Shown here piece by piece: positions 22,269 to 37,516 of a DNA stretch of 64,000 nucleotides. Both the position numbers and the translations under genes were made by a program. Source of the stretch: Mesorhizobium sp. M3A.F.Ca.ET.080.04.2.1 (GTDB taxonomy: Bacteria; Pseudomonadota; Alphaproteobacteria; Rhizobiales; Rhizobiaceae); the NCBI RefSeq assembly GCF_003952525.1, contig NZ_CP034451.1:992001-1056000 (forward strand), written 5' to 3'. The first letter of the stretch is position 1, and the number at the start of each line of letters is the position of its first letter. Below the pieces are notes generated by a model. That model made no database searches. It had not been told where the DNA came from and saw only the letters and a list, made by a program, of their open reading frames with translations.

Positions 22269-24953
22269 TCATTCCTTGCGCCCGCCGCCGAGCATCTTCT
22301 CGATCTCGAGCGCGCCGATCGGCTTGCTGAAATGATAACCCTGCATCTCGTCGCAATTGTTCTTGCGCAGGAAGGCCACCTGGTCGTCGGTTTCGACGCC
22401 TTCCGCGATGACCCTCAGGTTGAGCTTCTGCCCCAGTGAGATAACGGCGCTGGCAACAGCCTGGTCGTTCTCGTCCGCGGCGAGATCGTTGATGAACGAC
22501 TTGTCGATCTTCAAGCGTGCGACGGGAAAAGTCTTCAGCGAGCTCAGGCTGGAATAGCCGGTGCCGAAGTCGTCGATCGATATCTGCACGCCCAGGGCCT
22601 GGAGTTCGTTCATCGTGGAGACCGCCAGATCGACATCCTGCATGATCAGGCTTTCGGTGACCTCGAGCTCGAGATAGCGGGCCTCGAGGCCGCTGTCCGC
22701 CAAGGCTTTGACGACACGAGCGACAAGGTTCTTCTCGCGGAATTGCCGCGCGGACACATTCACGCAGACGGCGATCGGCGGCAGTCCGGCATTCTGCCAG
22801 GCCTTGTTCTGCCGGCACGCCTCCTGCAGCACCCAGTCGCCGATCTGCACGATCAGGCCCGATTCCTCGGCGGTCGGAATGAACGTCCTGGGCGACACCA
22901 TGCCTCGTGTCGGATGCTTCCAGCGGACCAGCGCCTCGACCGCGAAGATGCGCCCCGTCCGGAGATCGAGTTGCGGCTGATAGAGAAGCATGAATTCCGA
23001 ACGCGCCAAGGCGTTTCGCAACTCCTCCCGGAGCACGAATTTCTCATGCGCCCTGATGTTGAACTCGGGAGCATAGAACTGGAAATTGTCGCGGCCGAAC
23101 TCCTTCGCGCTGTACATGGCCGCATCGGCATTGGCCAGCAGCGCGTCCAGGCTGGTTCCGTCCTTCGGGTAGTTTGCCACGCCGATGCTGGCGGTGGTCC
23201 TCAGCCGGTGCCCTCCCAATTGAATTGGAGCCGCGATCGCAACCTGGATCCTGCGCACCATCTCGGAGGCGTGATCGAGGTTCGTCGGCTGGTCGGACAA
23301 CACGACGACGAATTCGTCGCCGCCGAGCCGCACGACGGTGTCCGACGGCGTGACGCACTGGACCATCCGGCTGGCGACGGTCTTCAGCAGCTCGTCTCCG
23401 GCGTTGTGACCGAGCGTGTCGTTGACCAGCTTGAAGTTGTCCAGATCGATGAACAGGATCGTTATCCACCGGCCGTAACGCTGGGCGTAGAGGATCGACT
23501 GCGATAGACGATCCTCCAGCAGCGCGCGGTTGGGAAGCCCGGTCAGCGCATCGTGGTTGGCCATGAAATGGATCTGCTCCACGGAAAGCTTGCGCTCGAT
23601 GGCGATCCCGGCGATGTGCGTGGTGAATTCGATGAGCTTCCTTTCGGCGGCCGTCGGTTCGCGTGCGGTCATCGAGTACATGGCGAAGACGCCAAGCACC
23701 GCGCCCTGATGGGAAAGGATCGGCGTCGACCAGCACGAACGATAGCCATAGGGCGCGACCAGATGGCGATAGCCTTCCCAAAGCGGATCCTGCGTGATGT
23801 CGGTGACGAACACCGGCTCCCGGCGGTAGGCGGCGGTTCCGCACGATCCCGCCTTCGGACCGATGGCGCTGCCGTCGATGGCGCTCGTATAGTCTTTCGC
23901 CAGGCTGGGCGCCGAGCCGTGCCGCAGGCGGCCGCTCTTGTCGAGCAGGAGCACCGATCCAAATATCGCGTGGAGCTGGGATTCGACCAGCAGCATCAGC
24001 TTATCAAGAACGTCCTCCAGCGGCGCGCCCGTCGCGATCATTTCCAGAATGTGAGCCTGCCCGTCGCGGAGGACGTCGGCCCGCTTGCGGGCGGTGATAT
24101 CGTGGGCGATGCCGAGCAGGCCGAGAGTCTCGCCGTCCGAATTGCGAAGGGGAACCTTTGTCGAGGACACCCATTTGCCGGCGCCGGAGGCATCGACAAC
24201 GAATTCCTCCTCGTCGATCATCGGTTCTCCGCTGCGCAGTATTCTCTGTTCGCTATCGTGAAAACTGCGCGCCATCTCCGGGGCATGGAGATCGAAATCG
24301 GACAGGCCGATCATGTCGCTGGTCTTTTCCCGCCCGCTGTCGGTGGCAAGCGCCTTGTTGGCGACCACGAAGCGGCCATCGGCGCTCTTGATCCATAGAT
24401 AATCCGGCACCCAGTCGATCAGCGCCTGCAGCGAGATCCGCTCGTCGGCGAACTGCCGGCTGGCGATGAGTTCCGTGATGTCCTCATGCGTGGCCACCCA
24501 GCCGCCGTCGGGCATCGGCTGGTGGCGGACCTCGATCGTGCGGCCATCGCTTAGTCTGGCGTTCCATGTTCTGGGCTCACCCGCTTTGTTCACCGACCGG
24601 GCCGCCTCGAGATAGGCGTCGGTCGGCATGACCGAGGTGCCGGCAGCCACGCGCAGTTCAATGATTTCGCGCAGCGTCATGCCCGGCTGCAATGCGCCTG
24701 GCGCAATGCCGTAGATCTCCGCATATCGGCGGTTGCACAGAATGATCCGTTCGTCGACGCCGAAGAAGCAAATGCCGAGCGAGATGTTGTCGATGGCCGT
24801 CTCGAACCGCAGCGCCTGGCTTTCGAGCGCAGTGATCCTGGCGCGAAGCTCCCGCTCGAGCGTTTCGTAGGAAGCTGTTGCCAACTTTGCCAGTGCGGCC
24901 AGTTCGGCCCTCTCTGGCGCTTCGTTGGCCCCTCTTGATGGTTTGGTGGCCAA
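22269..24953 (-). CDS. PAS/GAF-GGDEF-EAL cyclic-di-GMP protein
   Basis: Signalling protein predicted to make and/or degrade cyclic di-GMP. Domains in order: a short coiled N-terminus, two PAS domains (~50-165 and ~185-300; ICFFGVDERIILCNRRYAEI and DYLWIKSADGRFVVANKALA), a GAF domain (~320-450), a GGDEF domain with an intact GGDEF at 544-548, and an EAL domain with EAL at 673-675 (EALVRWKHP) and DDFGTGYSSL. Both catalytic signatures look intact, so it may be bifunctional. No membrane helices, so sensing is cytoplasmic. The TTG at 24953 is chosen because AAGGA lies upstream and the frame before it is Cys-rich and unlike this family; an ATG at 25082 is in frame. Confidence 0.9.
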   Translation of the reverse strand: MATKPSRGANEAPERAELAALAKLATASYETLERELRARITALESQALRFETAIDNISLGICFFGVDERIILCNRRYAEIYGIAPGALQPGMTLREIIELRVAAGTSVMPTDAYLEAARSVNKAGEPRTWNARLSDGRTIEVRHQPMPDGGWVATHEDITELIASRQFADERISLQALIDWVPDYLWIKSADGRFVVANKALATDSGREKTSDMIGLSDFDLHAPEMARSFHDSEQRILRSGEPMIDEEEFVVDASGAGKWVSSTKVPLRNSDGETLGLLGIAHDITARKRADVLRDGQAHILEMIATGAPLEDVLDKLMLLVESQLHAIFGSVLLLDKSGRLRHGSAPSLAKDYTSAIDGSAIGPKAGSCGTAAYRREPVFVTDITQDPLWEGYRHLVAPYGYRSCWSTPILSHQGAVLGVFAMYSMTAREPTAAERKLIEFTTHIAGIAIERKLSVEQIHFMANHDALTGLPNRALLEDRLSQSILYAQRYGRWITILFIDLDNFKLVNDTLGHNAGDELLKTVASRMVQCVTPSDTVVRLGGDEFVVVLSDQPTNLDHASEMVRRIQVAIAAPIQLGGHRLRTTASIGVANYPKDGTSLDALLANADAAMYSAKEFGRDNFQFYAPEFNIRAHEKFVLREELRNALARSEFMLLYQPQLDLRTGRIFAVEALVRWKHPTRGMVSPRTFIPTAEESGLIVQIGDWVLQEACRQNKAWQNAGLPPIAVCVNVSARQFREKNLVARVVKALADSGLEARYLELEVTESLIMQDVDLAVSTMNELQALGVQISIDDFGTGYSSLSSLKTFPVARLKIDKSFINDLAADENDQAVASAVISLGQKLNLRVIAEGVETDDQVAFLRKNNCDEMQGYHFSKPIGALEIEKMLGGGRKE

Positions 24954-25293
24954 GCAGAGTTCCTTCGTCCCAATGCCGGGAAAACAACAAGGCGGTCCGC
25001 GGCAGCTAAAGGCTGCGATATCTTGCCCATTACATACTAATGGTAGGTGAACGCACGCGGGAGACAGCTGGAAGCTGCACAACGTGACCGGCTGTGGTCT
25101 GGGTTCTCAAGATAACAAGCCTGCATGGATGGCCAGCGGATTGCAGACGACCGGCTCTGCTAGGCGCCGCGCAGGCGCGAGACTTGCTCGAATTCTTTGG
25201 GCTGGCGGCCCATTGTTAGGAACCGGGCGGATCAACTATTGCTAATGCAGTCGCGCAAAATATGGATGCTTTGGCTGAGGCTACTTTCCACAC
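24954..25293. other. Intergenic region with no recognised gene
   Basis: About 340 bases between the start of the cyclic-di-GMP gene and the stop of the EmrB-type gene. Base composition is less GC-rich than the surroundings, no frame shows codon bias or a family motif, and no strong hairpin was seen. It presumably holds the promoter of the cyclic-di-GMP gene. Confidence 0.5.
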
Positions 25294-26826
25294 TCAGTCC
25301 ATATGGGCCGCCGGCGCGGCACCGGCCGGCGCCGCCTTGGGCTTGCGCAGCAGGAACACGAACGGGATCGCCAGCAGCGTCATCACCATCAGGATTTTGA
25401 AATCGTTGACGTAGGAGATCATCATCGCCTGCAGGTTCACCGCCCTGTCCACTTGTGAAAGCGCCATCGGATCGCCGCTGGCCGCCGCCGGGGAAGCGGC
25501 CCAGAGGTTCGGATTATAGGGATTGATGAAGGCCGCGAGCTCGCCGTGATTGATCTGCGTGTTGCGCACCATGAGCGCCGCGACAACCGACACGCCGATC
25601 GAGGAGCCGAGATTGCGCACCAGGCTGAACAGCGAGGTGGCGTCGGTGCGGTAGCGCTCGTCGAGCGTGGCGAAGGCAACCGTCGACAGCGGCACGAACA
25701 CCATGCCCATGCCCAGGCCCTGGACGATGCCCGACGTGATGATCAGCCAGTTGTCCATCTGCGGCGTGAAGCTCGCCATCGTGTAGAGCGATTGCGCGGT
25801 GAGCAGAAAGCCGATGACGACGAGGATGCGCGCGTCGATCCTGTGCATGATGCGGCCGACCAGCAGCATCGAAATCATCGTGCCGACACCGCGGGGGCCC
25901 AACACGACGCCGATGGTCATGGTCGGATAGCCGAAGATGGTCGCCAGCATCGGCGGCAGCAGCGACATCGAGGCCAGGATCAACACTCCCATGACGAAAA
26001 TGAAGGCCAGTCCGGTCACGAAATTGCGGTCAAGGAAGATCTTGGGATCGATGAAGGGATGCTCGGCCGTCACCGTGTGAATGATGAACACCCAGAAGCC
26101 GGTGAGCGACAGGCCAAGCTCGATCCAGATCTCGGCCGAGGAGAACCAATCGACCTCGCCGCCGCGGTCGAGCAGGAGCTGCAGCGCACCGACGCCGAGC
26201 GAGATCATGGCGAAGCCGAAGAAATCGAAGCCGCGCAAGCGCCGGGCAACGGCGGGCAGATAGGCGGCCATGCCAAGGAAGGCGAGGATGCCGACCGGCA
26301 GGTTGATGAAGAACACCCAGCGCCAGTTGAAATTCTCGGTCAGCCAGCCGCCGAGCGTGGGTCCGAGGATCGGCCCCAGCATGATGCCGGCGCCCCAGAT
26401 GGCCATCGCCTGGCCATGGCGCTCCTTCGGGTTGATGTCGAGCAGGAAAGTCTGCGACAGCGGCACGATCGCGGCGCCGAACACGCCCTGCAGCAGCCGG
26501 AACAGCACCATGGTCTCGAGGCTCCAGGCGAGGCCGCAGAGCATGGAAAAGATGGTGAAGCCGACGACGGCGGTGAGAAACAGCTGCTTGCGGCCGAGGC
26601 GGTCGGCAAGCCAGCCGGTGACCGGCGTCATGATCGCGGCCGCGACGATGTAGGAGGTCAGCACCCAGTTGATGTTGTCGGGCGAGGCGCCGAGATCACC
26701 GGTCATGGTCGGCAGCGCGACATTGGCGATCGTGGTGTCGAGCGCCTGCATGATCGTGGCCAGCATGAGCGCGACCGTGATCAGGCCGCGGTGGGGCACT
26801 TCCTTGAAAGGTTCCGGCGTGCTCAT
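25294..26826 (-). CDS. DHA2-family MFS drug efflux transporter (EmrB-like)
   Basis: Proton-driven exporter of the 14-helix DHA2 family, 510 residues. Family signatures are ALDTTIANVALPTM in helix 1, WVLTSYIVAAAIMTPVTGWLAD with GRKQLF in loop 2-3, and GAGIMLGPILGPTLGGWL (motif C of exporters) in helix 5. It is the third gene after a MarR regulator and an EmrA-like adaptor on the same strand, the standard emrRAB layout, so it probably forms a tripartite pump with the adaptor and an unlinked outer-membrane channel. The 122-base gap to the adaptor holds no obvious terminator. Substrates are likely hydrophobic toxins or phenolics. Confidence 0.93.
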   Translation of the reverse strand: MSTPEPFKEVPHRGLITVALMLATIMQALDTTIANVALPTMTGDLGASPDNINWVLTSYIVAAAIMTPVTGWLADRLGRKQLFLTAVVGFTIFSMLCGLAWSLETMVLFRLLQGVFGAAIVPLSQTFLLDINPKERHGQAMAIWGAGIMLGPILGPTLGGWLTENFNWRWVFFINLPVGILAFLGMAAYLPAVARRLRGFDFFGFAMISLGVGALQLLLDRGGEVDWFSSAEIWIELGLSLTGFWVFIIHTVTAEHPFIDPKIFLDRNFVTGLAFIFVMGVLILASMSLLPPMLATIFGYPTMTIGVVLGPRGVGTMISMLLVGRIMHRIDARILVVIGFLLTAQSLYTMASFTPQMDNWLIITSGIVQGLGMGMVFVPLSTVAFATLDERYRTDATSLFSLVRNLGSSIGVSVVAALMVRNTQINHGELAAFINPYNPNLWAASPAAASGDPMALSQVDRAVNLQAMMISYVNDFKILMVMTLLAIPFVFLLRKPKAAPAGAAPAAHMD

Positions 26827-26948
26827 GATGCGAAATTTCCGTGTCGGAAGCGCTTCAGCTTCGATCGAGCCGCTTGGCGGCTCGGCTCAAATGCCGATCC
26901 TTCCCACTCAAACAATCAGATCCCTGTTCACCGCGCGCTTCGCCGTCC

Positions 26949-28124
26949 TTACTGGTCGTGCTCGCTGGCGGTGGCGTGACCGAAAATCCAAGGCAGCCCG
27001 CGCGCCACGCCCGTGTCGACAGTAACCGTCGCGCTCATGCCGGTGCGCAGCGCCATCTTGGCGTCGGGGTCGGTCAGTTCGAGGCGCACCGGAATGCGCT
27101 GGGTGACCTTGACCCAGTTGCCGGTGGCGTTCTGGGCGGGCAGCAGCGAGAACTCGGCACCGGTGCCGGCGCCGATCGCCTTGACGGTCGCCTCGAAGGT
27201 CTTGCCCGGATAGGTGTCGACCACGATCTCGGCCTTCTGGCCCGGCTTCATGTTGGTGAGCTGGGTCTCCTTGAAATTGGCGTCGATCCAGGTGTCGCCG
27301 GTCTCGACCAGCGCAAACAGCGGCGTGCCGACGCCGACATACTGGCCGACCTTGAAGGACGACGCCTGATACACCACGCCGTCGGCCGGCGCCTTCACCG
27401 TGGTCTGCGCAAGGTCATAGGCGGCCTTGTCGCGCGCGGCCAGCGCCGACATCACGGTCGGATGCCTGTCGGTCTCGATATCCGGATTGCCGCCGAGCGC
27501 CGCCTTGGCGCTGACGATGCCCTGCTGGGCCACGGCCAGCTGCTGCTTGGCCTTGTCGAGGTCGTTGCGGGCCTCGTCGAGCGAAGACTTGGCGTTGATG
27601 CCCTTCTGGGCGAGATCGGCAGCGCGGTCATATTGCGACTGCGCGTAGTCGACCTCGCTGCTGGCCGATTTTTCCTGCGCCATCGCCTGGCTGTAGGCGG
27701 CGCGCAGCTGCTCGACATTGAGCCGCGCGGCGGCGACCGCCGCATCGGCCTCGGCCAGCGCGATCCGATAGGGCTCGGGATCGATGACGAAGAGAAGGTC
27801 GCCCTGCTTGACCGTCTGGTTGTCGCTGATGCCGACCTGAACGATGCGTCCCGCCGTATCGGAGGCGACGGAAATCCTGGCCTGCTCCAAATTGGCGTTC
27901 TCGGTTTCCTGGTAGCGGCCGCCCGTCACCCAGACATAGACGCCGCCGGCAAGCAGCGCCAGCGGCAGCGCGATCATCAGCAGGAAGCGGCCGGTGCGTT
28001 TCTTCTGCGGCGCCACGGGCGCCGGCTGCGGCGCGGGCGCCACGGAGGCAGGCGCCGCCGGTCTTGCCGGCGCTTCCAGTTCAAGCTTGGTCACGTTCTC
28101 GTCCATCTTGGCTGCCGCGTTCAT
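26949..28124 (-). CDS. HlyD/EmrA-family membrane fusion protein
   Basis: Periplasmic adaptor of the EmrA type (391 residues). A Pro/Ala-rich cytoplasmic start is followed by one membrane helix near residues 45-65 (GRFLLMIALPLALLAGGVYV), the first lipoyl half, a long alpha-helical hairpin (~110-215; many Ala, Gln and Leu), and the second lipoyl half with GVVYQASSFKVGQYVGVGTP. The C-terminal beta-barrel contains WIDANFKETQL, typical of EmrA. Its ATG overlaps the stop of the marR gene (ATGA), so the two are translationally coupled. It should link the EmrB-like exporter to an outer-membrane channel. Confidence 0.93.
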   Translation of the reverse strand: MNAAAKMDENVTKLELEAPARPAAPASVAPAPQPAPVAPQKKRTGRFLLMIALPLALLAGGVYVWVTGGRYQETENANLEQARISVASDTAGRIVQVGISDNQTVKQGDLLFVIDPEPYRIALAEADAAVAAARLNVEQLRAAYSQAMAQEKSASSEVDYAQSQYDRAADLAQKGINAKSSLDEARNDLDKAKQQLAVAQQGIVSAKAALGGNPDIETDRHPTVMSALAARDKAAYDLAQTTVKAPADGVVYQASSFKVGQYVGVGTPLFALVETGDTWIDANFKETQLTNMKPGQKAEIVVDTYPGKTFEATVKAIGAGTGAEFSLLPAQNATGNWVKVTQRIPVRLELTDPDAKMALRTGMSATVTVDTGVARGLPWIFGHATASEHDQ

Positions 28125-28609
28125 GCTGCTCGCCCTTCCGTGTTCTTCATCTTTTCCAACGACGACGCTTCGCCGTCCGTCAAATTCTGCACGATCGCAT
28201 CCAGGACCCGGATCAGAATCCGGCGATCTTCCGGCGACACGCCGGCCAGCGATTCCTCATAGACTTCGCCGGCGAGGCTCTTCACCTCGGCATAGGCCGC
28301 GTTTGCCTTCTCCGTCGGGAAGATCATGCGCACCCGACGGTCGGTGGCGTCGGGGCGGCGCTCGATCCAGCCACCCTCCTCCATTCGGTCGACCAGACGC
28401 GAGACGCTGATCGGCTCGATTTCGAGAAGCTCTGCGAGGCGCGCCTGGGCGACGCCCGCTTCCTTGGCGACGCGCACCAGGAGCCGCCATTGTGCCGACG
28501 ACAGGCCGAGCCCACTGGCGCGCGCCTCGAAGCGCTTGCGCATGAGGCGCTGTACGTCGTGGATCAGAAATCCCAATCTTTCAATGCGTTCGGAAACCAT
28601 GAGCGGCAT
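28121..28609 (-). CDS. MarR-family transcriptional regulator
   Basis: Winged-helix repressor of 162 residues. The wHTH region runs from AQWRLLVRVAKEAGVAQARLAELLEIEPISVSRLVDRMEEGG to the wing (RRPDATDRRVRMIF), the classical MarR pattern with DxRxxR. It heads the emrRAB-like operon and very likely represses it, releasing on binding an aromatic or phenolic inducer. A small palindrome, TAAGC-GT-GCTTA, lies 7 bases before the start codon and is a plausible operator. No clear ribosome-binding site precedes the ATG at 28609; an ATG at 28600 is also in frame. Confidence 0.92.
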   Translation of the reverse strand: MPLMVSERIERLGFLIHDVQRLMRKRFEARASGLGLSSAQWRLLVRVAKEAGVAQARLAELLEIEPISVSRLVDRMEEGGWIERRPDATDRRVRMIFPTEKANAAYAEVKSLAGEVYEESLAGVSPEDRRILIRVLDAIVQNLTDGEASSLEKMKNTEGRAA

Positions 28610-28615
28610 ATATAA

Positions 28616-28627
28616 TAAGCGTGCTTA
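28616..28627. promoter_or_regulatory. Candidate MarR operator
   Basis: TAAGC (28616-28620) and GCTTA (28623-28627) form an inverted repeat with a two-base spacer, embedded in an AT-rich stretch (ATATATAATAAGC) directly upstream of the marR start. Its place in the likely promoter suits autorepression of the efflux operon. Short arms make this tentative. Confidence 0.5.
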
Positions 28628-28860
28628 CTATTCAAGAGGGATGCGCCGCTCCAAAAGCCGGAAAATGGGCATGATGGCGATGTATCACCATCGTGGTTAG
28701 CGACCGGTGAAGACTGGCGGTCCGCGGTGCCGCACCTTGAGGCGATGCATTCATGACAGGGCCTCAACTGTCTGAAACTTCACCCTGTTTTTCGCCGCAC
28801 GCTAGCGCCGGTCGGCATGTTCATGATACAGCTGATGACAAGGATCGGGGGATCTATGCA

Positions 28861-29469
28861 ATGCCGACGCTCTATGCGCTGAAGCCGGCTTTCCAGGACA
28901 GGCTGCGGCCGTTGACGGACAGGCTGGCTGTCATGGGGGTGACAGCCAACGGCATAACGCTGCTGGCCGCGCTCCTCTCCATATCGGCTGGCGCAATTAT
29001 TGCGGCCTTCCCGGGCTGGGGCGCGCTGCTTTTTCTGATCCCCATCGTGCTTTTCGTACGGATGGCGCTCAACGCCATCGACGGCATGCTGGCGCGAGAG
29101 CATGGCCAGGCCTCGACGCTTGGGATGTATCTCAATGAAATCTGCGATGTCGCGTCGGACCTGGCGCTCATCCTGCCGTTCGCCGCCTTCGGGCAATTTG
29201 GCGCCGGCGCTGTCGTGGCCTTCGCCATCACGGCCATGCTGACGGAGTTCGCCGGGGTGCTCGGCATCGCCGCCGGGATCGGGCGTAATTATGCCGGGCC
29301 GCTCGGCAAGAGCGACAGGGCGCTGGCGCTGGGCATCGTCGCGGTGCTGTTTGGCGCCGGACTTTGGCCGGCAGTGATCACGCCCTTCGTGTTTCCAGCC
29401 ATGGCAACGCTTTCGCTGCTGACCGCCATAAACCGGATACGAGCCGGCCTTATTGGCCGCATTGGCTGA
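28861..29469 (+). CDS. CDP-alcohol phosphatidyltransferase, YnbA-like
   Basis: Integral membrane enzyme expected to transfer an alcohol to the phosphatidyl group of CDP-diacylglycerol, releasing CMP; the alcohol is unknown. The 202-residue protein has five to six helices and the family motif as NAIDGMLAREHGQ...LGMYLNEICD. Two of the four usual metal-binding aspartates (first and third) are Asn, while the second and fourth are kept. E. coli YnbA, as I recall its sequence, has the same two Asn, so this appears to be a subfamily trait. The ATG at 28861 follows GGGGG by 11 bases. It is the first gene of a six-gene operon of lipid enzymes; the 251 bases upstream show no other gene. Confidence 0.85.
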   Translation: MPTLYALKPAFQDRLRPLTDRLAVMGVTANGITLLAALLSISAGAIIAAFPGWGALLFLIPIVLFVRMALNAIDGMLAREHGQASTLGMYLNEICDVASDLALILPFAAFGQFGAGAVVAFAITAMLTEFAGVLGIAAGIGRNYAGPLGKSDRALALGIVAVLFGAGLWPAVITPFVFPAMATLSLLTAINRIRAGLIGRIG

Positions 29470-29505
29470 GCATTGAAGCCGGCCATGCCGCCCGAGGGGA
29501 AGACA

Positions 29506-31293
29506 ATGTTGCACGAACAAATCGCCGCCGGGGCTGCGGAAACCCTTCCGCGGCAACCGCAGGAGCGCGTCTTCCACAGCCATGACGGCACCGAGATTTT
29601 CTATCGCTACTGGCCGGCCGTATCGGCCCAGGCCAAGGGCGCGATCGTGCTCTTCCATCGCGGCCATGAGCATGGCGGACGCATGGCGCACCTCGTCGAC
29701 GAATTGCGAATGCCGGATTATGCCTTCTACGCCTGGGATGCCCGCGGCAACGGCCGCTCCCAAGGCGAGCGCGGCTATGCGCCGTCCTTCGCAGCGCTGG
29801 TACGCGACATCGACTGCCTGATGCGCGAGATCGCGGCCAGGGACGGCTTTGCCACGCAGGACACAGCGCTCATCGCGCAGTCCTTCGGTGCCGTGCTGGC
29901 CGCCGCCTGGGTGCACGATTATGCCCCGAAACTGCGCGCCATGGTGCTCGCCTCGCCTGCCTTTTCGGTCAAGCTATACGTGCCGTTCGCGAAGGAGGGC
30001 ATCGCGCTCTGGCAGCAGATCAAGGGGCGGTTCTTCGTCAATTCCTACGTCAAGGCGAAGTACCTCACGCACGATCCGGTTCGCATCGCCTCCTTCGACA
30101 GCGACCCGCTGATCACGCGGCCGATCGCCTCCAACATCCTCGTCGAGCTCTATCAACATGCGGCGCGCATCGTTGCCGATGCCCGCGCCATCACCGTGCC
30201 GACACAGCTGCTGTTGTCGGGCAGCGACTGGGTGGTGCGCCACGCCCCGCAGCACGAATTCTTCGTCAACCTCGGCAGCCGCGCCAAGGAGCGCCACGTG
30301 CTGCCGGGCTTCTTCCACGATACGCTCGGCGAGCGCGACCGGGCCAAGGCGCTCGACCTGGTCCGCCCATTCCTCGAAGGGCAGTTCGCGAAGCCCGTCG
30401 ACACCGTCGACCTTAAGCAGGCGGACATTGCCGGCTACACGCGCGACGAGGCGGATCTGCTGGCCTCGCCGCTCGGCCGGCTGTCGCCCAAAGGCCTCTA
30501 TTGGGCGTTGAGCCGGGCCTCCATCCGGATCGGCAGCTGGTTCTCGCGAGGCATGAAGGTCGGCGTCGGCACCGGCTTCGATTCCGGTTCGACGCTGGAC
30601 TATGTCTACGAGAACGAGGCACGCGGTCTCGGCCCGATCGGCCGCGCTGTCGATCGCGTTTTCCTCGACGCCATCGGCTGGCGCGGCATCCGTCAGCGCA
30701 AGCTCAACCTCGAGGAGCTGATCGACTCGTCGCTTCGAACGCTCAAAGCGGCCGGGCGGCCGGCGCACATTCTCGACATCGCGGCCGGACACGGCCGCTA
30801 TGTTCTCGACGCGATCGCCAAGAGCCCGGACCACCCGGCCAGCGTGCGCCTGCAGGACTATTCCGAACTCAACGTCGAGTTGGGGCGCAACCTGATAGCC
30901 GAACGGCAATTGCCGCCAAGCGTTTCGTTCCACCTGGCCGATGCCTTCGATGGCGACGGGCTCGCCGCGCTCGATCCCGCGCCCGATCTCGCCATCGTCT
31001 CGGGCCTCTATGAGCTCTTCTCCGACAACGCGCTGATTGCCCGTTCGCTCAGCGGTCTCGCCCGTGCCATGCAGCCGGGGAGCCTGCTCATCTACACCAA
31101 CCAGCCTTGGCATCCGCAGCTCGAAATGATCGCGCGCAGCCTGACCTCGCATCGCGGCGGACAGGCCTGGGTGATGCGGCGGCGCACGCAGAGCGAAATG
31201 GACCAACTCGTCGAGGCTGCCGGCTTCGAAAAGCTCGACCAGCGCATCGACCAGTGGGGGATCTTCACCGTCTCGCTCGCAAGGCGGGTTTAG
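29506..31293 (+). CDS. Alpha/beta hydrolase - methyltransferase fusion, YnbC-like
   Basis: Two enzymes in one 595-residue chain. Residues ~20-310 are an alpha/beta hydrolase: HRGHEHGGR with an oxyanion-hole-like start, the nucleophile elbow AQSFGA (Ser126), and a late His in LPGFFHDTLGERD. This half resembles monoglyceride lipases. Residues ~400-595 are a class I SAM methyltransferase with ILDIAAGHGR at 422-431. The same fusion occurs in E. coli YnbC (585 residues, from memory), whose function is unknown. The ATG at 29506 follows GAGGGG; the frame opens at 29473. It lies 36 bases after the YnbA-like gene. Likely substrates are acyl or phosphoglycerol lipid intermediates. Confidence 0.85.
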   Translation: MLHEQIAAGAAETLPRQPQERVFHSHDGTEIFYRYWPAVSAQAKGAIVLFHRGHEHGGRMAHLVDELRMPDYAFYAWDARGNGRSQGERGYAPSFAALVRDIDCLMREIAARDGFATQDTALIAQSFGAVLAAAWVHDYAPKLRAMVLASPAFSVKLYVPFAKEGIALWQQIKGRFFVNSYVKAKYLTHDPVRIASFDSDPLITRPIASNILVELYQHAARIVADARAITVPTQLLLSGSDWVVRHAPQHEFFVNLGSRAKERHVLPGFFHDTLGERDRAKALDLVRPFLEGQFAKPVDTVDLKQADIAGYTRDEADLLASPLGRLSPKGLYWALSRASIRIGSWFSRGMKVGVGTGFDSGSTLDYVYENEARGLGPIGRAVDRVFLDAIGWRGIRQRKLNLEELIDSSLRTLKAAGRPAHILDIAAGHGRYVLDAIAKSPDHPASVRLQDYSELNVELGRNLIAERQLPPSVSFHLADAFDGDGLAALDPAPDLAIVSGLYELFSDNALIARSLSGLARAMQPGSLLIYTNQPWHPQLEMIARSLTSHRGGQAWVMRRRTQSEMDQLVEAAGFEKLDQRIDQWGIFTVSLARRV

Positions 31294-31305
31294 GACGGTC
31301 CAGGC

Positions 31306-32646
31306 ATGCCAACCGGTACCGAGGCGCAGCGCCTTCAAGCCTCCACAGCAACTCCCGAGCCCTACAGCCGGATCGTCGTCCGAGCAGCGCTCTGGCTCGC
31401 CTTCCTGGCGCCGTTCTTCTATTCGACCTACGGCTTCGCAAACTGGCTGGCCTCGACGCGCGACCATGTCGGCAGCATCGTCTTCTCCTGGGAGCACGCG
31501 GTGCCGTTCCTCGCCTGGACCATCGTGCCCTACTGGTCGATCAACCTGTTCTACGGGCTGTCGCTCCTGCTCAACGGGAGCAGGCAGGGTGTCGACCGGC
31601 TGGCCGGCCGCTACCTGGCCGCGCAGATCGTCGCCGTCGGCTGCTTCATCCTGTTTCCGCTGACTGCGACCTTCGTGCGCCCGGCAACGAGCGGAGTGCC
31701 AGGTTTCCTGTTTGCCGTGCTCGGCGGCTTCGACAAGCCCTTCAACCAGGCCCCTTCCCTGCACATTGCGCTTCTGGTGATCATCTGGGATCACTGGCGC
31801 CAGCGCCTCGGCGGGATCCTCCTGCCGATCTGGCACGGCTGGTGCTTCCTGATCGGCGCCTCGGTGCTGACGACGTGGCAGCACCATTTCATCGACATCC
31901 CGACCGGCGCGTTGCTCGGGTTCCTTGCGCTGTGGCTGTTTCCGGCCAAGGGCGAGCTGCCGCTTGCCGGTTTCCGCCTGACCGCCGATGCCAAGGCGCG
32001 GCGGCTTTCCCTGTATTACGCGACGGGTGCTGCCCTCGCTCTGGCCGGCGCCGCCATCGGCGTCTTTTTTTGCGCTGTCGCGCTTGTCCTTTTGTGGCCG
32101 GCGCTGGCGCTGGCGATCGTCGCCTTCGGCTATGCCGGAGCCGGCGCCAAGGTGTTCCAGAAGACAGCGGACGGCCATGTGTCGCTGGCAAGCCGTGTCG
32201 TGCTTTGGCCCTATCGCCTGGGCGCCAGACTCAACGTTCTGGCATGGACACGCAAGCTGCCGCCGGTAGTGGCAGTCAGCGACGGCGTCTTCCTCGGACG
32301 TTTTCCCGCAGCCGGCGAAGCCAACCGCTTCGGCACGGTGATCGATCTTGCCGCCGAGTTGGAGCGGCCGCGTGGGGCCGTGGGCCGCTGGATCAGCCTC
32401 CCCATGCTCGACCTGCTGCCGCCGCCCGCAGACAGGCTCGACCAGGCGGCGGGTGCGATCGAGCCGGCGCGCAGGGAAGGCACGGTGCTCGTCTGCTGCG
32501 CGCTCGGCTTCCAGCGCAGCGCCACCGTCGTCGCCGCATGGCTGGTCGCCACCGGCCGCTCGCGTACGCCGGCGCAGGCGCGCAGGCAACTCGCCGCGTC
32601 CGGTCGTCCGGTGCATCTTCAGATCGGACTGGACGAGCCGGCATGA
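31306..32646 (+). CDS. PAP2 phosphatase - dual-specificity phosphatase fusion, YnbD-like
   Basis: Membrane protein of 446 residues. The N-terminal ~280 residues have six helices of the PAP2 type; the family pattern is seen as FNQAPSLHIALLV and QHHFIDIPTGALLGFLALW, holding the catalytic His residues. The C-terminal ~150 residues form a cytoplasmic tyrosine/dual-specificity phosphatase with the P-loop CALGFQRS (Cys398 to Arg404, the CX5R motif). E. coli YnbD has the same two-part build. Both halves are phosphatases that in other proteins act on lipid phosphates such as phosphatidylglycerophosphate. It starts 12 bases after the YnbC-like gene and its stop overlaps the next start. Confidence 0.87.
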   Translation: MPTGTEAQRLQASTATPEPYSRIVVRAALWLAFLAPFFYSTYGFANWLASTRDHVGSIVFSWEHAVPFLAWTIVPYWSINLFYGLSLLLNGSRQGVDRLAGRYLAAQIVAVGCFILFPLTATFVRPATSGVPGFLFAVLGGFDKPFNQAPSLHIALLVIIWDHWRQRLGGILLPIWHGWCFLIGASVLTTWQHHFIDIPTGALLGFLALWLFPAKGELPLAGFRLTADAKARRLSLYYATGAALALAGAAIGVFFCAVALVLLWPALALAIVAFGYAGAGAKVFQKTADGHVSLASRVVLWPYRLGARLNVLAWTRKLPPVVAVSDGVFLGRFPAAGEANRFGTVIDLAAELERPRGAVGRWISLPMLDLLPPPADRLDQAAGAIEPARREGTVLVCCALGFQRSATVVAAWLVATGRSRTPAQARRQLAASGRPVHLQIGLDEPA

Positions 32647-33086
32647 CGGACGGCGCCTATCGGGAACGGACCGGCCGGTTTGCGGCCATGCTGGTGAAGC
32701 AGGCAGCATGGCCGGCTGCCGTCGTGATCGCCTGCGACAGTGTCGCGCCGCTGGTCGCCTCGGCGCGCGGCGCGTTCCAGGCACCGCTCGCGGTGCTGGC
32801 GCTTTTGGTGGCCTCGGCGAGTGCCGTCGTGGTGCTGGGGCTTTCCGCGCTTCTCGTCTTCGACGCGCTGCTGTTCCGGCTGATGGCAACTCATGACGAC
32901 GAGGTTTCCGGAGGCGCCGCCGTCGACGACCTTCTGGCGCGCATGCGGCTGAAGCCCGCTCCGGCCAACAAGCGCCCCCTCGACGACCGTATCGCCGGCA
33001 CGCGCCGCCTGCTCACCCGGCAGCGGATCGCCTTTGCGATCTTCGTCGTTGCGTTCCTGACGGCCGGTTTCTGGATGCCGCGATGA
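32643..33086 (+). CDS. Unknown membrane protein within the lipid operon
   Basis: 147 residues with no recognised family. A hydrophobic helix pair lies near residues 20-80 (PAAVVIACDSVAPLVASA; PLAVLALLVASASAVVVLGL), followed by a hydrophilic, Arg/Lys-rich loop (~85-125) and a C-terminal helix (IAFAIFVVAFLTAGFWM) that ends in PR. Both ends overlap neighbours by four bases (ATGA at 32643 and at 33083), so it is tightly coupled to the phosphatase and acyltransferase genes and should act with them. It has no obvious counterpart in the four-gene E. coli set. Confidence 0.8.
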   Translation: MTDGAYRERTGRFAAMLVKQAAWPAAVVIACDSVAPLVASARGAFQAPLAVLALLVASASAVVVLGLSALLVFDALLFRLMATHDDEVSGGAAVDDLLARMRLKPAPANKRPLDDRIAGTRRLLTRQRIAFAIFVVAFLTAGFWMPR

Positions 33087-33742
33087 GCAGGCTCTCGCTC
33101 AGGACATTCACCTTGTTGCAGACGGCGACCTCCGTCGGCCTGTCGGCGCTGGCCTGGGCGGTGACCGGCGTGCGCCCGATCTGGAGCGGCAGCCAGCCGT
33201 CGGAGCGGCAGCGCATCTATTTCGCCAACCACACCAGCCATGGCGATTTCATCCTGCTGTCGGCCTGCCTCAGCGAGAAGGAGCGGGCCATCACGCACGC
33301 CATCGCCGCGGCCGAATATTGGGGCAAGTCGCGGCTGCGCCGCTTCATCGCTGAGGACATGCTGTCCTCCGTGCTGATCAGCAGGCAATGGACCAGTCCG
33401 GAAGAGAACCCGATCTCGGTCATGCTCTCGGTGCTCGACCAGGGCCACTCGCTGATCATCTTCCCGGAAGGCACCCGCAACATGAGCGACGAGCTGCTGC
33501 CGTTCCGCTCCGGGCTCTACAATCTGTCGATGGCGCGCCCGGACGTCGAGCTCATCCCCTGCTGGATCGAGAACATGTCGCGCGTGCTGCCCAAGGGCCA
33601 GTTCCTGCCGGTGCCGCTGCTCTGCCGCGTCGTCTTCGGCGCGCCGGTGTCGGTGGCGCCGGGCGAGGAGCGCCGCGCCTTTCTCGAGCGCGCCCGGGCC
33701 GAACTTCTGGCGCTCAATCCGCGCCCCGAACGAGACGATTGA
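33083..33742 (+). CDS. 1-acyl-sn-glycerol-3-phosphate acyltransferase (PlsC family)
   Basis: Transfers an acyl chain to lysophosphatidic acid or a related acceptor, giving phosphatidic acid. The catalytic motif HTSHGD (H50 to D55, HX4D) and the acceptor-binding FPEGTR (127-132) are intact, and a hydrophobic N-terminus could anchor it to the membrane. At 219 residues it is slightly short for PlsC but complete. Its product is the substrate of the CdsA-type enzyme encoded next. Overlaps both neighbours: ATGA with the unknown membrane gene, TGATG with the cytidylyltransferase gene. Confidence 0.93.
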   Translation: MSRLSLRTFTLLQTATSVGLSALAWAVTGVRPIWSGSQPSERQRIYFANHTSHGDFILLSACLSEKERAITHAIAAAEYWGKSRLRRFIAEDMLSSVLISRQWTSPEENPISVMLSVLDQGHSLIIFPEGTRNMSDELLPFRSGLYNLSMARPDVELIPCWIENMSRVLPKGQFLPVPLLCRVVFGAPVSVAPGEERRAFLERARAELLALNPRPERDD

Positions 33743-34677
33743 TGCGCCACGAAATCAGCATACTGATCATCGGCCTTTTCGTGGTGCTGAGCACCGCCAG
33801 CGTCACCTCCGGCATCCTTTCGATGCGCGCGCCGAAGCCGCTCAGCGCGACGCTCGTCAACCTCACCCAGCGCATCAACGCCTGGTGGGTGATGGTGGCG
33901 CTGATGACGGTCGCCTTCTTCTTCGGCCGTTACGGCATGACGATCCTGTTCGCGCTGATCTCGTTCGCGGCGCTGCGCGAATTCGTGACGCTGACGCACA
34001 GCCGCCGTAGCGACCATTGGGTGCTGCTCGGCATGTTCGGCATCGTCATACCGGTCCAGTACTGGCTGGTGTGGACCGCCTGGTATGGGCTCTTCGTCAT
34101 CTTCATCCCGGTCTATTGCTTCCTTTTGATGCCGGCGATCACGGCGCTGCATGGCGACACCGAACGCTTCCTGGAACGCGTCTCGGCTCAGCAATGGGCG
34201 ATCATGATCTCGGTCTACTGCGTCAGCCACGTCCCTGCCCTGCTGACGCTCAACGTGCCGGGTTTCGAAGGCCGCAACCTTCTGCTGATCGCCTTCCTGA
34301 TCATCGTCGTGCAGGGCAGCGACGTGCTGCAGTACATCTTCGGCAAGCTGTTCGGGAAACACCGCTTCTCGCCGACGGTCTCGCCGTCGAAGACCTGGGA
34401 AGGCCTGATCGGCGGACTGGTCGCGTCGAGCCTGCTCGGCGCGCTGCTCGCCTTCATCACGCCGTTCTCACCGCTGCAGGCCTCGGCCGTCGCCTTCATC
34501 GCCTGCGCGATGGGATTCCTCGGCGGGCTCGTCGCCTCCGCGATCAAACGCGACCAGGGCGTCAAGGACTGGGGCCACCTGATCGAGGGCCATGGCGGCA
34601 TGCTGGACCGCACCGACAGCCTGGTCTTCGCCGCACCGATCTTCTTCCACATCGTGCGCTATTTCTGGACGGTTTGA
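33742..34677 (+). CDS. Phosphatidate cytidylyltransferase, YnbB-like
   Basis: Makes CDP-diacylglycerol from phosphatidic acid and CTP in the inner membrane. The 311-residue protein has about eight helices and the CdsA signature near the C-terminus: ASAIKRDQGVKDWG followed by EGHGGMLDRTDSL, with the acidic and basic residues needed for catalysis, plus SPSKTWEGLIGG. A housekeeping cdsA is expected elsewhere next to uppS, so this is probably a second, dedicated enzyme feeding the YnbA-like transferase. It ends the operon and converges with the ABC permease gene with only 8 bases between stops. Confidence 0.93.
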   Translation: MRHEISILIIGLFVVLSTASVTSGILSMRAPKPLSATLVNLTQRINAWWVMVALMTVAFFFGRYGMTILFALISFAALREFVTLTHSRRSDHWVLLGMFGIVIPVQYWLVWTAWYGLFVIFIPVYCFLLMPAITALHGDTERFLERVSAQQWAIMISVYCVSHVPALLTLNVPGFEGRNLLLIAFLIIVVQGSDVLQYIFGKLFGKHRFSPTVSPSKTWEGLIGGLVASSLLGALLAFITPFSPLQASAVAFIACAMGFLGGLVASAIKRDQGVKDWGHLIEGHGGMLDRTDSLVFAAPIFFHIVRYFWTV

Positions 34678-34685
34678 TCCGCCGG

Positions 34686-35705
34686 CTAGATCCGCCTGCG
34701 CATCAGGAGCGTGACGACGAAGAAGGCGCCGAGCGAGCTGGTGATGATGCCGATCGGCAATTCCTGCGGCGGCAGCAGCGTGCGGGCGAGCAGATCGCTG
34801 GCCAGCAGCAGGATCGCGCCGAACAGCGCGCAGACTGCAATCAGCGGCCGATGCAGCGGACCAGCCAGCGGCCGGCCGAGATGCGGGATCATCAGCCCGA
34901 CGAAGCCGATGACACCGGCGACCGCGACGAGGATGGCAGTGGCCAAGGCGGCGACAAGGAACGTCGTCCGGCGCATGCGCGCCACCGGCACGCCGAGGCT
35001 TTCGGCAGCGCTTTCGCCGGCGAGGAAGGCGTCCAAGCGGCGGTGGTTCCAGAGGCCGTAGGCGAGGATGATTCCGGCGCCCAGCGCCGCCAGCCCGATA
35101 TTGTCCCAGCGGGCAAGCCCAAGCCCGCCCATGGTCCAGAACAGCACCGAATGGGCGGCGCGCTGGTCGCCGGCGAAGACGAGATAGTTGGTAAGCGCGG
35201 TGAACATGAAGGATACGGCGAGCCCGGCAAGGATCAGCCGCTCGGGGCCCTGCCCCCTCACCCGTGAGACCAGGAGCAGCACGATTGTCGCCGCCAATAT
35301 GCCGCCGGTGAACGCCGCCACCGGCAAGGTCCATATTCCAAACCTGTCGCCGAAGGCGGTGATGACCGAAACGGCGCCGGCAGCGGCGCCGGAGGAGAGG
35401 CCGAACAGGAACGGATCGGCTAGGTCGTTGCGGCTGACGGTCTGCAGCAGCGCACCGACGGCGCCAAGGCCGGCGCCGACCGCGATCGCCAGCAGGGTGC
35501 GCGGCAGCCTGAGGTCGACGACGATGCTGCCCACGGGTCCGGGAACGGCGGGGCCATCCAGCCCGGCGGTATGCGCCAGCGCGCCGAGGACCTCGCGCAA
35601 AGGTATCAATGTCGAGCCATAGGCGATCGACAGCAGGGCGAGCGCGACCAGGAGAGCCGCGCCCAGGGCTATCGACAAGACGAACGATCGGTGGTGTAGA
35701 TTCAC
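34686..35705 (-). CDS. btuC: FecCD-type ABC transporter permease, probably cobalamin importer BtuC
   Basis: Inner-membrane permease of the FecCD/BtuC family, 339 residues with ~10 helices. Signatures: RLPRTLLAIAVGAGLGAVGALLQTVSRNDLADPFLFGLSSGA near the N-terminus and GFVGLMIPHLGRPL in the ATPase-contact loop. It is the last gene of a three-gene ABC importer; the riboswitch upstream of the operon identifies the substrate as cobalamin rather than an iron chelate, which the protein family alone could not decide. It begins with GTG at 35705, 48 bases after the stop of the binding-protein gene. Confidence 0.88.
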   Translation of the reverse strand: MNLHHRSFVLSIALGAALLVALALLSIAYGSTLIPLREVLGALAHTAGLDGPAVPGPVGSIVVDLRLPRTLLAIAVGAGLGAVGALLQTVSRNDLADPFLFGLSSGAAAGAVSVITAFGDRFGIWTLPVAAFTGGILAATIVLLLVSRVRGQGPERLILAGLAVSFMFTALTNYLVFAGDQRAAHSVLFWTMGGLGLARWDNIGLAALGAGIILAYGLWNHRRLDAFLAGESAAESLGVPVARMRRTTFLVAALATAILVAVAGVIGFVGLMIPHLGRPLAGPLHRPLIAVCALFGAILLLASDLLARTLLPPQELPIGIITSSLGAFFVVTLLMRRRI

Positions 35706-35753
35706 GTCGTCAGGCGATCCGTCAACAATAACACTCCCAGCTCAGCTCAAGAC

Positions 35754-36701
35754 CTAAAACGCTTCCGGATGCATGGCCCTGGCGATCTTGCCGATCGCTT
35801 CGATATTGGCGGGACCGGGCGTCAGCTCGGCGTAGCGCAGTGCCACGAAGCGCTCGTTCTTGACGGCGTCGGTCTCTTTCATCGCTGGATGGGCCTTGAG
35901 GAAATCGAGCAGTTTCTTGTAGCCGCCGCCGTCCTGGTAATCGAGCAGGATGAGGAATTGCGGATTGCGCGAGGCGACCGTCTCCCAGTCGGTGTTGCCC
36001 CAGCTCGTCTCCATGTCGGCCATGATGTTCTCGCCGCCGGCGGCTGCGATCATGGCATTCGGGATGGCGAACCTGCCGGCGGTGAAAGGCTTGTCCTCGC
36101 CGGAATCATAGAGGAAGACGCGGGTGCCCTTGGCGTTGCCAATTTTCGCCGTGATGTCGGCGAGCTCGGCCTTCCAGCCAGCGACGAGCTTTTGAGCATC
36201 GGCCTCCTTGCCGAAGATCTTGCCCAGCTTCTCGACGTCGCCATAGAGCAGGTCCATCGAGGCGGCAGGTCGGTCCTTGTCGAGGTGGACGCAGCTTTCG
36301 GTCAGCACCAGCGTCTTGATGCCGTGCGGGGCGAGTGTGTCCGGCGTTACCTCGCCGCCCGGCTTCATGCCGTAGTACCAGCCGGCGAAGAAGAAATCGG
36401 GCTGCACGGCGATCAGATTCTCGAGCGTCGGATATTTCGGCGCGAGTTCCGGGATCGAGCCCTGCGCGGCCTTGAACTCCGGCCCGACCTTGTACCAGCC
36501 GGTGATGCCGGTGAGACCGACGATCGAGGACTGCAGCTTCAGCGCGAAGGCCATCTCGGCCATGTTGAGGTCGTGAATGACGGCACGCTTTGGCGGCGCC
36601 TCGAAGGTCAGCGGCTTGCCGCAGCTGTCGATGGTGACCGGAAAAGCGAAGGCCGGCGAGGCGGCGAGCAAAAAGGCAAACGACAGCGCGATGCGTTTCA
36701 A
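35754..36701 (-). CDS. btuF: ABC transporter substrate-binding protein, probably cobalamin-binding BtuF
   Basis: Periplasmic binding protein of the FecB/BtuF class (315 residues) with a signal peptide (LSFAFLLAASPAFA) and two lobes joined by a rigid helix. The N-lobe opens with RAVIHDLNMAEMAFAL, and Trp/Tyr-rich stretches (GWYYGMKPGG) may contact the ligand. It begins with TTG at 36701, preceded by AAGGAG at ten bases. Middle gene of the importer operon, 29 bases after the ATPase gene. The name rests on the operon's cobalamin riboswitch; sequence alone would allow an iron-siderophore binder. Confidence 0.82.
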   Translation of the reverse strand: MKRIALSFAFLLAASPAFAFPVTIDSCGKPLTFEAPPKRAVIHDLNMAEMAFALKLQSSIVGLTGITGWYKVGPEFKAAQGSIPELAPKYPTLENLIAVQPDFFFAGWYYGMKPGGEVTPDTLAPHGIKTLVLTESCVHLDKDRPAASMDLLYGDVEKLGKIFGKEADAQKLVAGWKAELADITAKIGNAKGTRVFLYDSGEDKPFTAGRFAIPNAMIAAAGGENIMADMETSWGNTDWETVASRNPQFLILLDYQDGGGYKKLLDFLKAHPAMKETDAVKNERFVALRYAELTPGPANIEAIGKIARAMHPEAF

Positions 36702-36730
36702 GGGACAGGTGCTCCTTTGTTTGGACAGGT

Positions 36731-37516
36731 TCAGGATGGCGAGGATGCGCCGTTGGCAAGGTCGAAGACGGTGAGCTCGCGGTCTTCTGTCGGATGCGGC
36801 AGACGCAGCACATCGATGCCGAAGACCTGGCGCACGAGCTGGGCGTCAAGCGCCTCGCGCGGCGGCGCCAGCGCATGCAGCCGGGCATTGTTCATCACCG
36901 CCACCGTGGTGGCGAAGGGCGCCACCAGCGACAGGTCGTGCAGCACGGCAACGACGGTCATGCCGAAGTCCGCGACAAGGTCGAGAAGGTCGCCGCGGGC
37001 GCGCGGATCGAGATGGTTGGTCGGTTCGTCGAGGAACAGGATTTTTGGCTCCTGCGCCATGGCACGGGCGAGTTGCGCACGTTCCCGTTCGCCACCGGAC
37101 AGCGAGCCGATCGTGCGGCAAAGCAGCGGCAAGAGTCCGGTCCGGCGCAGCGCATCCACGACGATATCGCGATCCTCGCGCTTGCGCCTGATGCCGATAT
37201 GCGGGACGCGGCCAAGCTCGACATAGTCGATGAGAGTAACCCGCGGATCAGGCTGGTCGGCCTGGCCGACGACGGCCATGCTGAGTGCACGCTCGCCCTG
37301 CGTGATCCTATCCAGCCGGCGTCCGGCCAGGCGCACCTCGCCGCTGGCCGGCCGCAGAGCACCACACAGCATGCGCAAGAGCGTGGTTTTGCCGGCACCG
37401 TTAGGCCCGACGATGGCCAGCCGTTCGCCCGGAGTGAGCGACAGGCTGACGCCATCGACCAGGAGCTTGCCGCCTGCCACGGCCGTCAGGCTGCGAGCTT
37501 CGAGAAGCTCAGTCAT
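36731..37516 (-). CDS. btuD: ABC transporter ATPase, probably cobalamin importer BtuD
   Basis: Cytoplasmic ATPase of the FecE/BtuD type, 261 residues. Walker A is GPNGAGKTT at 37-45, the ABC signature is SLSGGERERAQLARAMA, and Walker B is ILFLDEPTNHLD, all intact. GGGAGA lies upstream of the ATG at 37516. It is the first gene of the operon and is preceded by a ~200-base leader and the cobalamin riboswitch, so its expression should fall when adenosylcobalamin is plentiful. Confidence 0.9.
   Translation of the reverse strand: MTELLEARSLTAVAGGKLLVDGVSLSLTPGERLAIVGPNGAGKTTLLRMLCGALRPASGEVRLAGRRLDRITQGERALSMAVVGQADQPDPRVTLIDYVELGRVPHIGIRRKREDRDIVVDALRRTGLLPLLCRTIGSLSGGERERAQLARAMAQEPKILFLDEPTNHLDPRARGDLLDLVADFGMTVVAVLHDLSLVAPFATTVAVMNNARLHALAPPREALDAQLVRQVFGIDVLRLPHPTEDRELTVFDLANGASSPS

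Follow-up and report, generated by a model that had tools for sequence, protein, structure and literature searches.

What is the function of six tightly packed genes of Mesorhizobium sp. M3A.F.Ca.ET.080.04.2.1 that had been likened to the ynbABCD set of Escherichia coli? The genes lie at positions 28861-34677 of the window, i.e. the whole stretch of 64,000 nt that was analysed (contig NZ_CP034451.1, positions 992,001 to 1,056,000); the genome that holds the window comprises 6.17 Mb in a single contig. With start codons applied, all six genes run in the same direction (+) in the order A-C-D-M-P-B (Table 1), with gaps of 36 bp between A and C and of 12 bp between C and D, and with overlaps of 4 bp (D-M), 4 bp (M-P) and 1 bp (P-B). 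An earlier inspection of the letters (the sequence-only reading) had called these six neighbouring genes at the same positions, and we confirm both positions and gene calls; it had further described them as an extended ynbABCD set, without established function in E. coli, that forms a dedicated phospholipid route. There is good support for placing the operon, as a rhizobial member, in the Arc1 (arc1A-F) family known from Pseudomonas aeruginosa. Its function is better described through Arc1 than through ynb, and its transferase is a distinctive variant. Going one step further, we favour, with modest confidence, the reading that this Arc1 member encodes a self-contained inner-membrane pathway which makes and remodels phospholipid and thereby guards the envelope against phospholipases.

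The genes PA2541-36 were described as arc1A-F, antagonism resistance cluster 1, by Ting et al. 2022 (PMC8926400; this paper as well as PMC12663445, PMC6362211, PMC7413402 and PMC2435150 are cited here for selected sections). Genes of this cluster were recovered in transposon screens under attack by the type VI secretion system (T6SS) of Burkholderia thailandensis; the cluster is needed by P. aeruginosa to survive T6SS attack and has a mainly defensive role. Its genes are induced by Gac/Rsm and, according to the sections cited, do not matter under stress by heat, peroxide, salt or detergent (PMC8926400). The paper describes five of the six genes as phospholipid-related (PMC8926400). In a tssM1 background, arc1A mutants were more sensitive to Vibrio cholerae 2740-80, and less so when its lipase TseL was inactive; they were also more sensitive to Acinetobacter baylyi armed only with the lipase Tle1 (PMC12663445). 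The statement that such genes have no established function is therefore outdated, as arc1A-F are needed under T6SS attack (PMC8926400) and arc1A contributes to resistance against lipase effectors (PMC12663445). In the sections cited, neither of the two papers assigns a biochemical activity to the cluster. We compared the window with locus L179 of a P. aeruginosa sister genome (G308), whose elastase domain is identical to PDB pro-elastase 8cr7 at 145/145 positions. L179 carries A-C-D-M-P-B in the same order as the window, with identities of 48% for A and P, 49% for D, 56% for B and 58% for C; M gives no blastp hit and is matched by hidden Markov model (HMM) only (E 3e-7). The L179 copy of M shares 94% identity with a protein cluster that bears the name P. 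aeruginosa. By order, we take arc1A-F (PA2541-36) to correspond gene by gene to A, C, D, M, P and B. The likeness of arc1A-F to the window operon thus consists in six genes in the order A-C-D-M-P-B, as in L179. Control of arc1A-F by Gac/Rsm in P. aeruginosa is not expected to extend to Mesorhizobium: this system is called restricted to gamma-Proteobacteria (PMC8926400), and the Mesorhizobium operon would therefore need another regulator. Neither "ynb" nor "rhizob" occurs in the main text of PMC8926400, and in the openly licensed PMC literature, which was the literature covered, we found no paper linking ynb to Arc1. Within that literature, three unconnected things are hereby tied together: the orphan ynbABCD genes of E. 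coli, Arc1 of P. aeruginosa and the rhizobial operon.

The E. coli set has the order A-B-C-D and no P or M. Its A, C and D share 42%, 53% and 38% identity with the window proteins, B is matched by profile, and YnbA carries the same pair of asparagines as A of the window (see below). Of 5426 complete E. coli genomes, 4242 have ynbABCD at 80% length or more. Over-production of YnbB raises the glycolipid MPIase, the ynbB knockout is described as without significant MPIase change, and YnbB was unable to replace CdsA in E. coli (PMC6362211). YnbD was negative for phosphatidylglycerol phosphate (PGP) and undecaprenyl pyrophosphate (C55-PP) phosphatase activity (PMC7413402), and a ynbC transposon mutant accumulates polyphosphate, possibly via cell stress or polar effects (PMC2435150). 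These data bear on the explanation that the operon is a redundant housekeeping pathway, spare for the steps from phosphatidate via CDP-diacylglycerol (CDP, cytidine diphosphate) to phosphatidylglycerol (PG). Four of the six gene products do resemble PG-synthesis enzymes (PMC8926400), but the two negative complementations, of YnbB for CdsA and of YnbD for the two phosphatases, argue against a simple doubling of housekeeping steps, and A departs from housekeeping enzymes at the catalytic metal site; we regard this explanation as very improbable. The way in which Arc1 protects against lipases can be probed directly in E. coli K-12.

To follow how the gene set travels we used an even sample of 299 Pseudomonadota genomes from 180 genera, in which genomes with PF12147, the methyltransferase family of C, were counted as carriers. 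PF12147 was found in 22/299 genomes, 10/180 genera and 3/9 genomes of the own genus; the distribution is patchy, as for an accessory cassette. The association of the genes exceeds chance: among the 22 carrier loci, A is found in all 22, D in 20, M in 18 and each of P and B in 19, with the full set of six in 16. A co-occurrence survey had been suggested by the sequence-only reading, which would have suffered had the genes rarely been found together; they were found together in most carriers. The survey nevertheless reverses the direction of the comparison: six genes are the usual form in this sample, from which E. coli lacks P and M, and there is no four-gene norm to which PlsC and the membrane protein could have been added. 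Genome-wide, D occurs in 21/22 PF12147 genomes, whereas full-length D occurs in 0/277 others. In a larger set of 109 loci, every one chosen for holding C and some of them ending at contig edges, we counted A in 105, D in 103, B in 89, M in 88 and P in 86, with all six near C in 75. Two loci (L118 and L132) have no detectable M, yet an open frame sits between D and P. Plasmids carry the genes in Citrobacter (IncF), Shinella and Burkholderia; on the Citrobacter plasmid (L006) the order A-B-P-C-D-M stands next to a Tn3-family transposase and a recombinase, and three E. coli plasmids (H36-H38) match 73-75% of this locus, namely its A-B-P-C part. We rejected viral or phage carriage, as viral contigs scanned with C yielded no relative, and also neighbouring genes as clues to function, as the flanks of 46 hand-chosen loci out of 129 held no recurring partner gene and the largest outside cluster was present in 6 loci. 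Two plasmids show C in other company: on a Moraxella plasmid (L007) it adjoins genes annotated as patatin-like phospholipase, short-chain dehydrogenase/reductase, CdsA-like and PAP2, and on a Kosakonia plasmid (L008) a C homologue without the hydrolase Ser and His motifs lies near annotated acyl-carrier and ketosynthase genes.

The most peculiar protein of the operon is the transferase A. It matches PF01066 with 29.3 bits (cut-off 22) and shows the CDP-alcohol phosphotransferase fold, in which it is closest to phosphatidylinositol-phosphate (PIP) synthases. It lacks, however, the four-Asp signature D1-x2-D2-G-x2-A-R-x8-G-x3-D3-x3-D4, as Asn replaces the metal-binding D1 and D3. Asn stands at both positions in 105/105 A copies surveyed, compared with D,D in 20/20 ordinary PF01066 rows. 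In a canonical enzyme, replacing signature Asp residues weakens or abolishes function (PMC8633023). A is therefore not a textbook CDP-alcohol phosphotransferase. The dedicated phospholipid route of the sequence-only reading is partly supported: it is plausible and the most economical reading, and the catalytic residues of C, D, P and B are all present in the window. The fixed double Asn points to a lipid or a reaction off the standard map, and hints at an unrecognised membrane lipid. One could go further and regard A as an ex-transferase that now serves B and P as a lipid-binding or regulatory partner, in an operon that feeds CDP-diacylglycerol elsewhere, e.g. to MPIase. This would agree with MjPSS D62N, a change at D3 that is among those where added Mg restores little or nothing (PMC8633023), and with the effect of YnbB over-production on MPIase; the ynbB knockout, however, speaks against it, and D2, D4, the motif Gly and the Arg of the acceptor site are each conserved in 103-105 of the 105 A copies, unlike in a decaying enzyme. 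We consider this reading very improbable.

The fold also raises the possibility of phosphatidylinositol synthesis, with A as PIP synthase and the dual-specificity phosphatase (DSP) half of D as the missing bacterial PIP phosphatase. Besides the fold, the best NCBIfam matches of A point this way, i.e. archaetidylinositol-phosphate synthase and PIPS, and R192 aligns with R195 of MtPIPS, a residue believed to contact the phosphate of the acceptor (PMC4634129); for R153 the counterpart is R152 or R155, according to where the gap is placed. The window's genome moreover has an inositol-phosphate synthase (PF01658). Yet the NCBIfam scores are far below the cut-offs (71.5 of 180 and 38.9 of 170 bits), A and the bacterial PIP synthases (RsPIPS, MtPgsA1) are only 18-20% identical in the structural alignment, and at two of the four signature positions A has Asn instead of Asp. 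PF01658 is confined to 3/22 carriers, all of the own genus and the window's genome among them; as it is absent in 19/22 carriers, we rejected an inositol lipid as general product, and inositol is unlikely to be the general head group. Phosphatidylinositol synthesis as the task of the operon is in our view very improbable. The DSP half of D, related to PTPMT1 at profile level, would nonetheless fit the removal of phosphate from a phosphatidyl-alcohol phosphate. Such a step would not be universal, because D was not found beside the class II transferases described below or at the Fusobacterium locus.

A profile of A, run against the 299 Pseudomonadota genomes, gave 29 strong matches (over 170 bits), of which 22 come from genomes with PF12147 and 7 from genomes without. 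Five of these seven adjoin P and B. The sixth (L142, genome G110) is a decaying copy, with an internal TAA in the A gene and a short B piece, and the seventh (L143), despite its strong match to A, has Ala in place of D1, Asn in place of D3 and Val in place of the motif Arg, and neither P nor B is adjacent to it. Among the weaker matches we found a second class (class II; L144-L156, L174-L176) with the motifs R-L-x-(C/A)-N-x2-D-G and (Y/F/W)-N-(E/D)-x-P-D. These proteins (NxxDGxVAxE...NExPD) have Asn at both D1 and D3, and the Arg of "AR" is replaced. A YnbB-like B neighbours them in 16/16 fetched loci and a PlsC-like P in 14/14 loci with enough flank, the flanks of the other two being too short to judge P; weaker matches that were not fetched are not counted. 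A 68-row tree comprised 32 class I rows (L143 among them), 16 class II rows and 20 D,D rows; in it, one branch (support 95/88) parts the 48 class I and II rows from the 20 ordinary D,D rows, among which branches are long. R153 and R192 are kept in 31/31 class I rows covering them, and R192 is kept in both classes. The homologue search with the A profile showed no outgroup among the 120 listed of at least 7999 candidates scored. Since A, P and B occur together without C and D, in five of the seven strong-A genomes and at class II loci, we argue that synthesis is the core function; the core appears to consist of A and B, usually with P, while C, D and M look like a further layer. A paper on BvrR/BvrS was considered as a report of the gene trio and rejected, as its genes are scattered. 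Tentatively, and with rather more doubt than confidence, we suggest that the Asn-variant transferases are a separate clade of apparently single origin, usually accompanied by their own CdsA-like and PlsC-like partners; that this trio makes an unrecognised phospholipid by changed metal chemistry; that in the Arc1/Ynb form a methylation and the removal of phosphate come on top, giving a lipid which resists or repairs phospholipase attack; and that E. coli ynbABCD would accordingly be a defence pathway. The operon as a whole belongs to the known Arc1 kind, and what may be new is the clade of Asn-variant transferases; the literature covered was that on ynb and Arc1, and no search was made for the variant by itself.

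The remaining proteins are consistent with lipid chemistry. Pfam scores are above cut-off for C (PF12146 219.8 bits, PF12147 471.8), P (PF01553 65.0) and B (PF01148 229.2). D stays below (DSPc 29.1 of 33.5, PAP2_3 20.0 of 27), although the catalytic residues of PAP2 and of the CX5R motif are present. By family knowledge, catalytic roles fall to the motifs S126, D241 and H271 of the C hydrolase triad, to R125, H153, H194 and D197 in the PAP2 half and D369 and C398-X5-R404 in the DSP half of D, to H50-X4-D and PEGTR at 128 in P, and to KR-X4-KD and GHGG-X2-DR-X-D in B; all of these are kept in the window proteins. The last motif, the signature of CdsA-type CDP-diacylglycerol synthases, is kept in 88/89 B rows. 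The profile of D (A5) matches DSPs including PTPMT1 (3rgo, E 2.7e-10), with other DSPs scoring higher; D is thus like PTPMT1-type lipid phosphatases in its DSP domain (at profile level) and its CX5R motif, but differs by the PAP2 fusion, and YnbD is no PGP phosphatase in E. coli. The methyltransferase half of C has only weak solved relatives. M has D74, F78, R116 and G119 invariant in 21 sequences; its predicted structure, of low confidence (pLDDT 75.4, pTM 0.47), gave no Foldseek match in the PDB, and M may nonetheless have a known fold.

From these parts, P would acylate lysophosphatidate to phosphatidate and B would convert the latter to CDP-diacylglycerol, which the Asn-variant A, with a PIP-synthase-like pocket and a changed metal site, might couple to a phosphorylated alcohol. 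The DSP half of D would then strip the extra phosphate, and its PAP2 half, C (acyl hydrolase and methyltransferase) and M may finish or remodel the lipid, which would renew or harden the envelope against rivals' phospholipases. Every reaction step is inferred, as are acceptor and product and the protection that the operon would give in Mesorhizobium. A different use of the same enzymes would be salvage of lysophospholipids: C would deacylate those made by lipases, P would re-acylate lysophosphatidate, and A, B and D would only rebuild ordinary phospholipid. The hydrolase half of C indeed matches monoacylglycerol lipases by profile (E 3.5e-21) and, weakly, lysophospholipase L2 (32.6 of 362 bits), and the contribution of arc1A to protection against lipases (PMC12663445) also speaks for salvage. 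But A, P and B occur together without any C in other genomes, P is not beside the E. coli or Fusobacterium sets, and ordinary synthesis needs no Asn-variant transferase, here fixed in every copy; in P. aeruginosa, it is arc3 and Aas that are held to control lysophospholipids (PMC8926400, PMC12663445). Salvage is therefore possible, but rather unlikely.

If the pathway guards against phospholipases delivered by rivals, its surroundings may bear on this. The T6SS sheath gene VipB is present in 17/22 carriers and 60/277 non-carriers (Fisher p 2e-7), and 9/10 carrier genera have at least one VipB genome compared with 39/170 others (p 3e-5); a single VipB gene is present in the genome that holds the window. 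This enrichment is weak support, because the carriers' genomes are large (median 6.0 Mb) and VipB is found in 9/9 genomes of the own genus, of which 3 have the operon; the association is thus confounded. Several further points weigh against a synthetic and protective Arc1 pathway in Mesorhizobium. The comparison runs through the sister genome L179 and not through PAO1. No single tested B. thailandensis effector explains the arc1 defect in the sections cited, and loss of arc1 also modestly raised B. thailandensis survival (PMC8926400). Loss of arc1A and aas in addition to arc3A made a strain no more sensitive than loss of arc3A did, and the authors regard arc1A as auxiliary beside arc3A (PMC12663445). 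Asn at D1 and D3 might mean that A is not a transferase at all. The negative assays of YnbD come with no function ascribed to it in the sections cited (PMC7413402), and E. coli manages without P and M. Among the 22 carrier loci, the HMM search misses M in 4 and both P and B in 3; Fusobacterium vincentii has a minimal C-A-B operon (L012:5986-9093) with no D, M or P adjacent; and A loci without nearby B and P, of Rhizobium type (e.g. L050, L051) and in L055, count against a strict A-B-P rule.

Table 1. Genes of the operon and its upstream region (window coordinates)
Feature	Position	Strand	Details
A: CDP-alcohol phosphotransferase, Asn variant, ynbA-like	28861..29469	+	202 aa; N71, D74, N92, D96; K150, R153, R192
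C: alpha/beta hydrolase (N-terminal) fused to Methyltransf_20, ynbC-like	29506..31293	+	595 aa; ATG at 29506; PF12146 + PF12147
D: PAP2_3-type membrane phosphatase fused to dual-specificity phosphatase, ynbD-like	31306..32646	+	446 aa
M: small helical membrane protein, without Pfam family	32643..33086	+	147 aa
P: PlsC-type acyltransferase	33083..33742	+	219 aa; PF01553
B: CdsA-like CTP transferase, ynbB-like	33742..34677	+	311 aa; PF01148
Intergenic region common to operon and divergent marR-type gene	28610..28860	.	likely promoter region, from position only

Judging by its position, the intergenic region upstream of A is likely the promoter region of the six-gene operon. A divergent efflux operon of the marR-emrA-emrB type (25294-28609, -) uses the same upstream region; in a comparison of 62 related loci, marR and emrA adjoin the operon in one Mesorhizobium group only (L052, L053, L057-L067, L078, L116). 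On the other side, a convergent operon (34686-37516, -) holds a FecCD-type permease, a periplasmic binding protein and an ATPase, i.e. an ATP-binding cassette transporter of the iron or haem/B12 type. A large PAS-GAF-GGDEF-EAL type protein is encoded at 22269-25082 (-). These neighbours are named from their reading frames.

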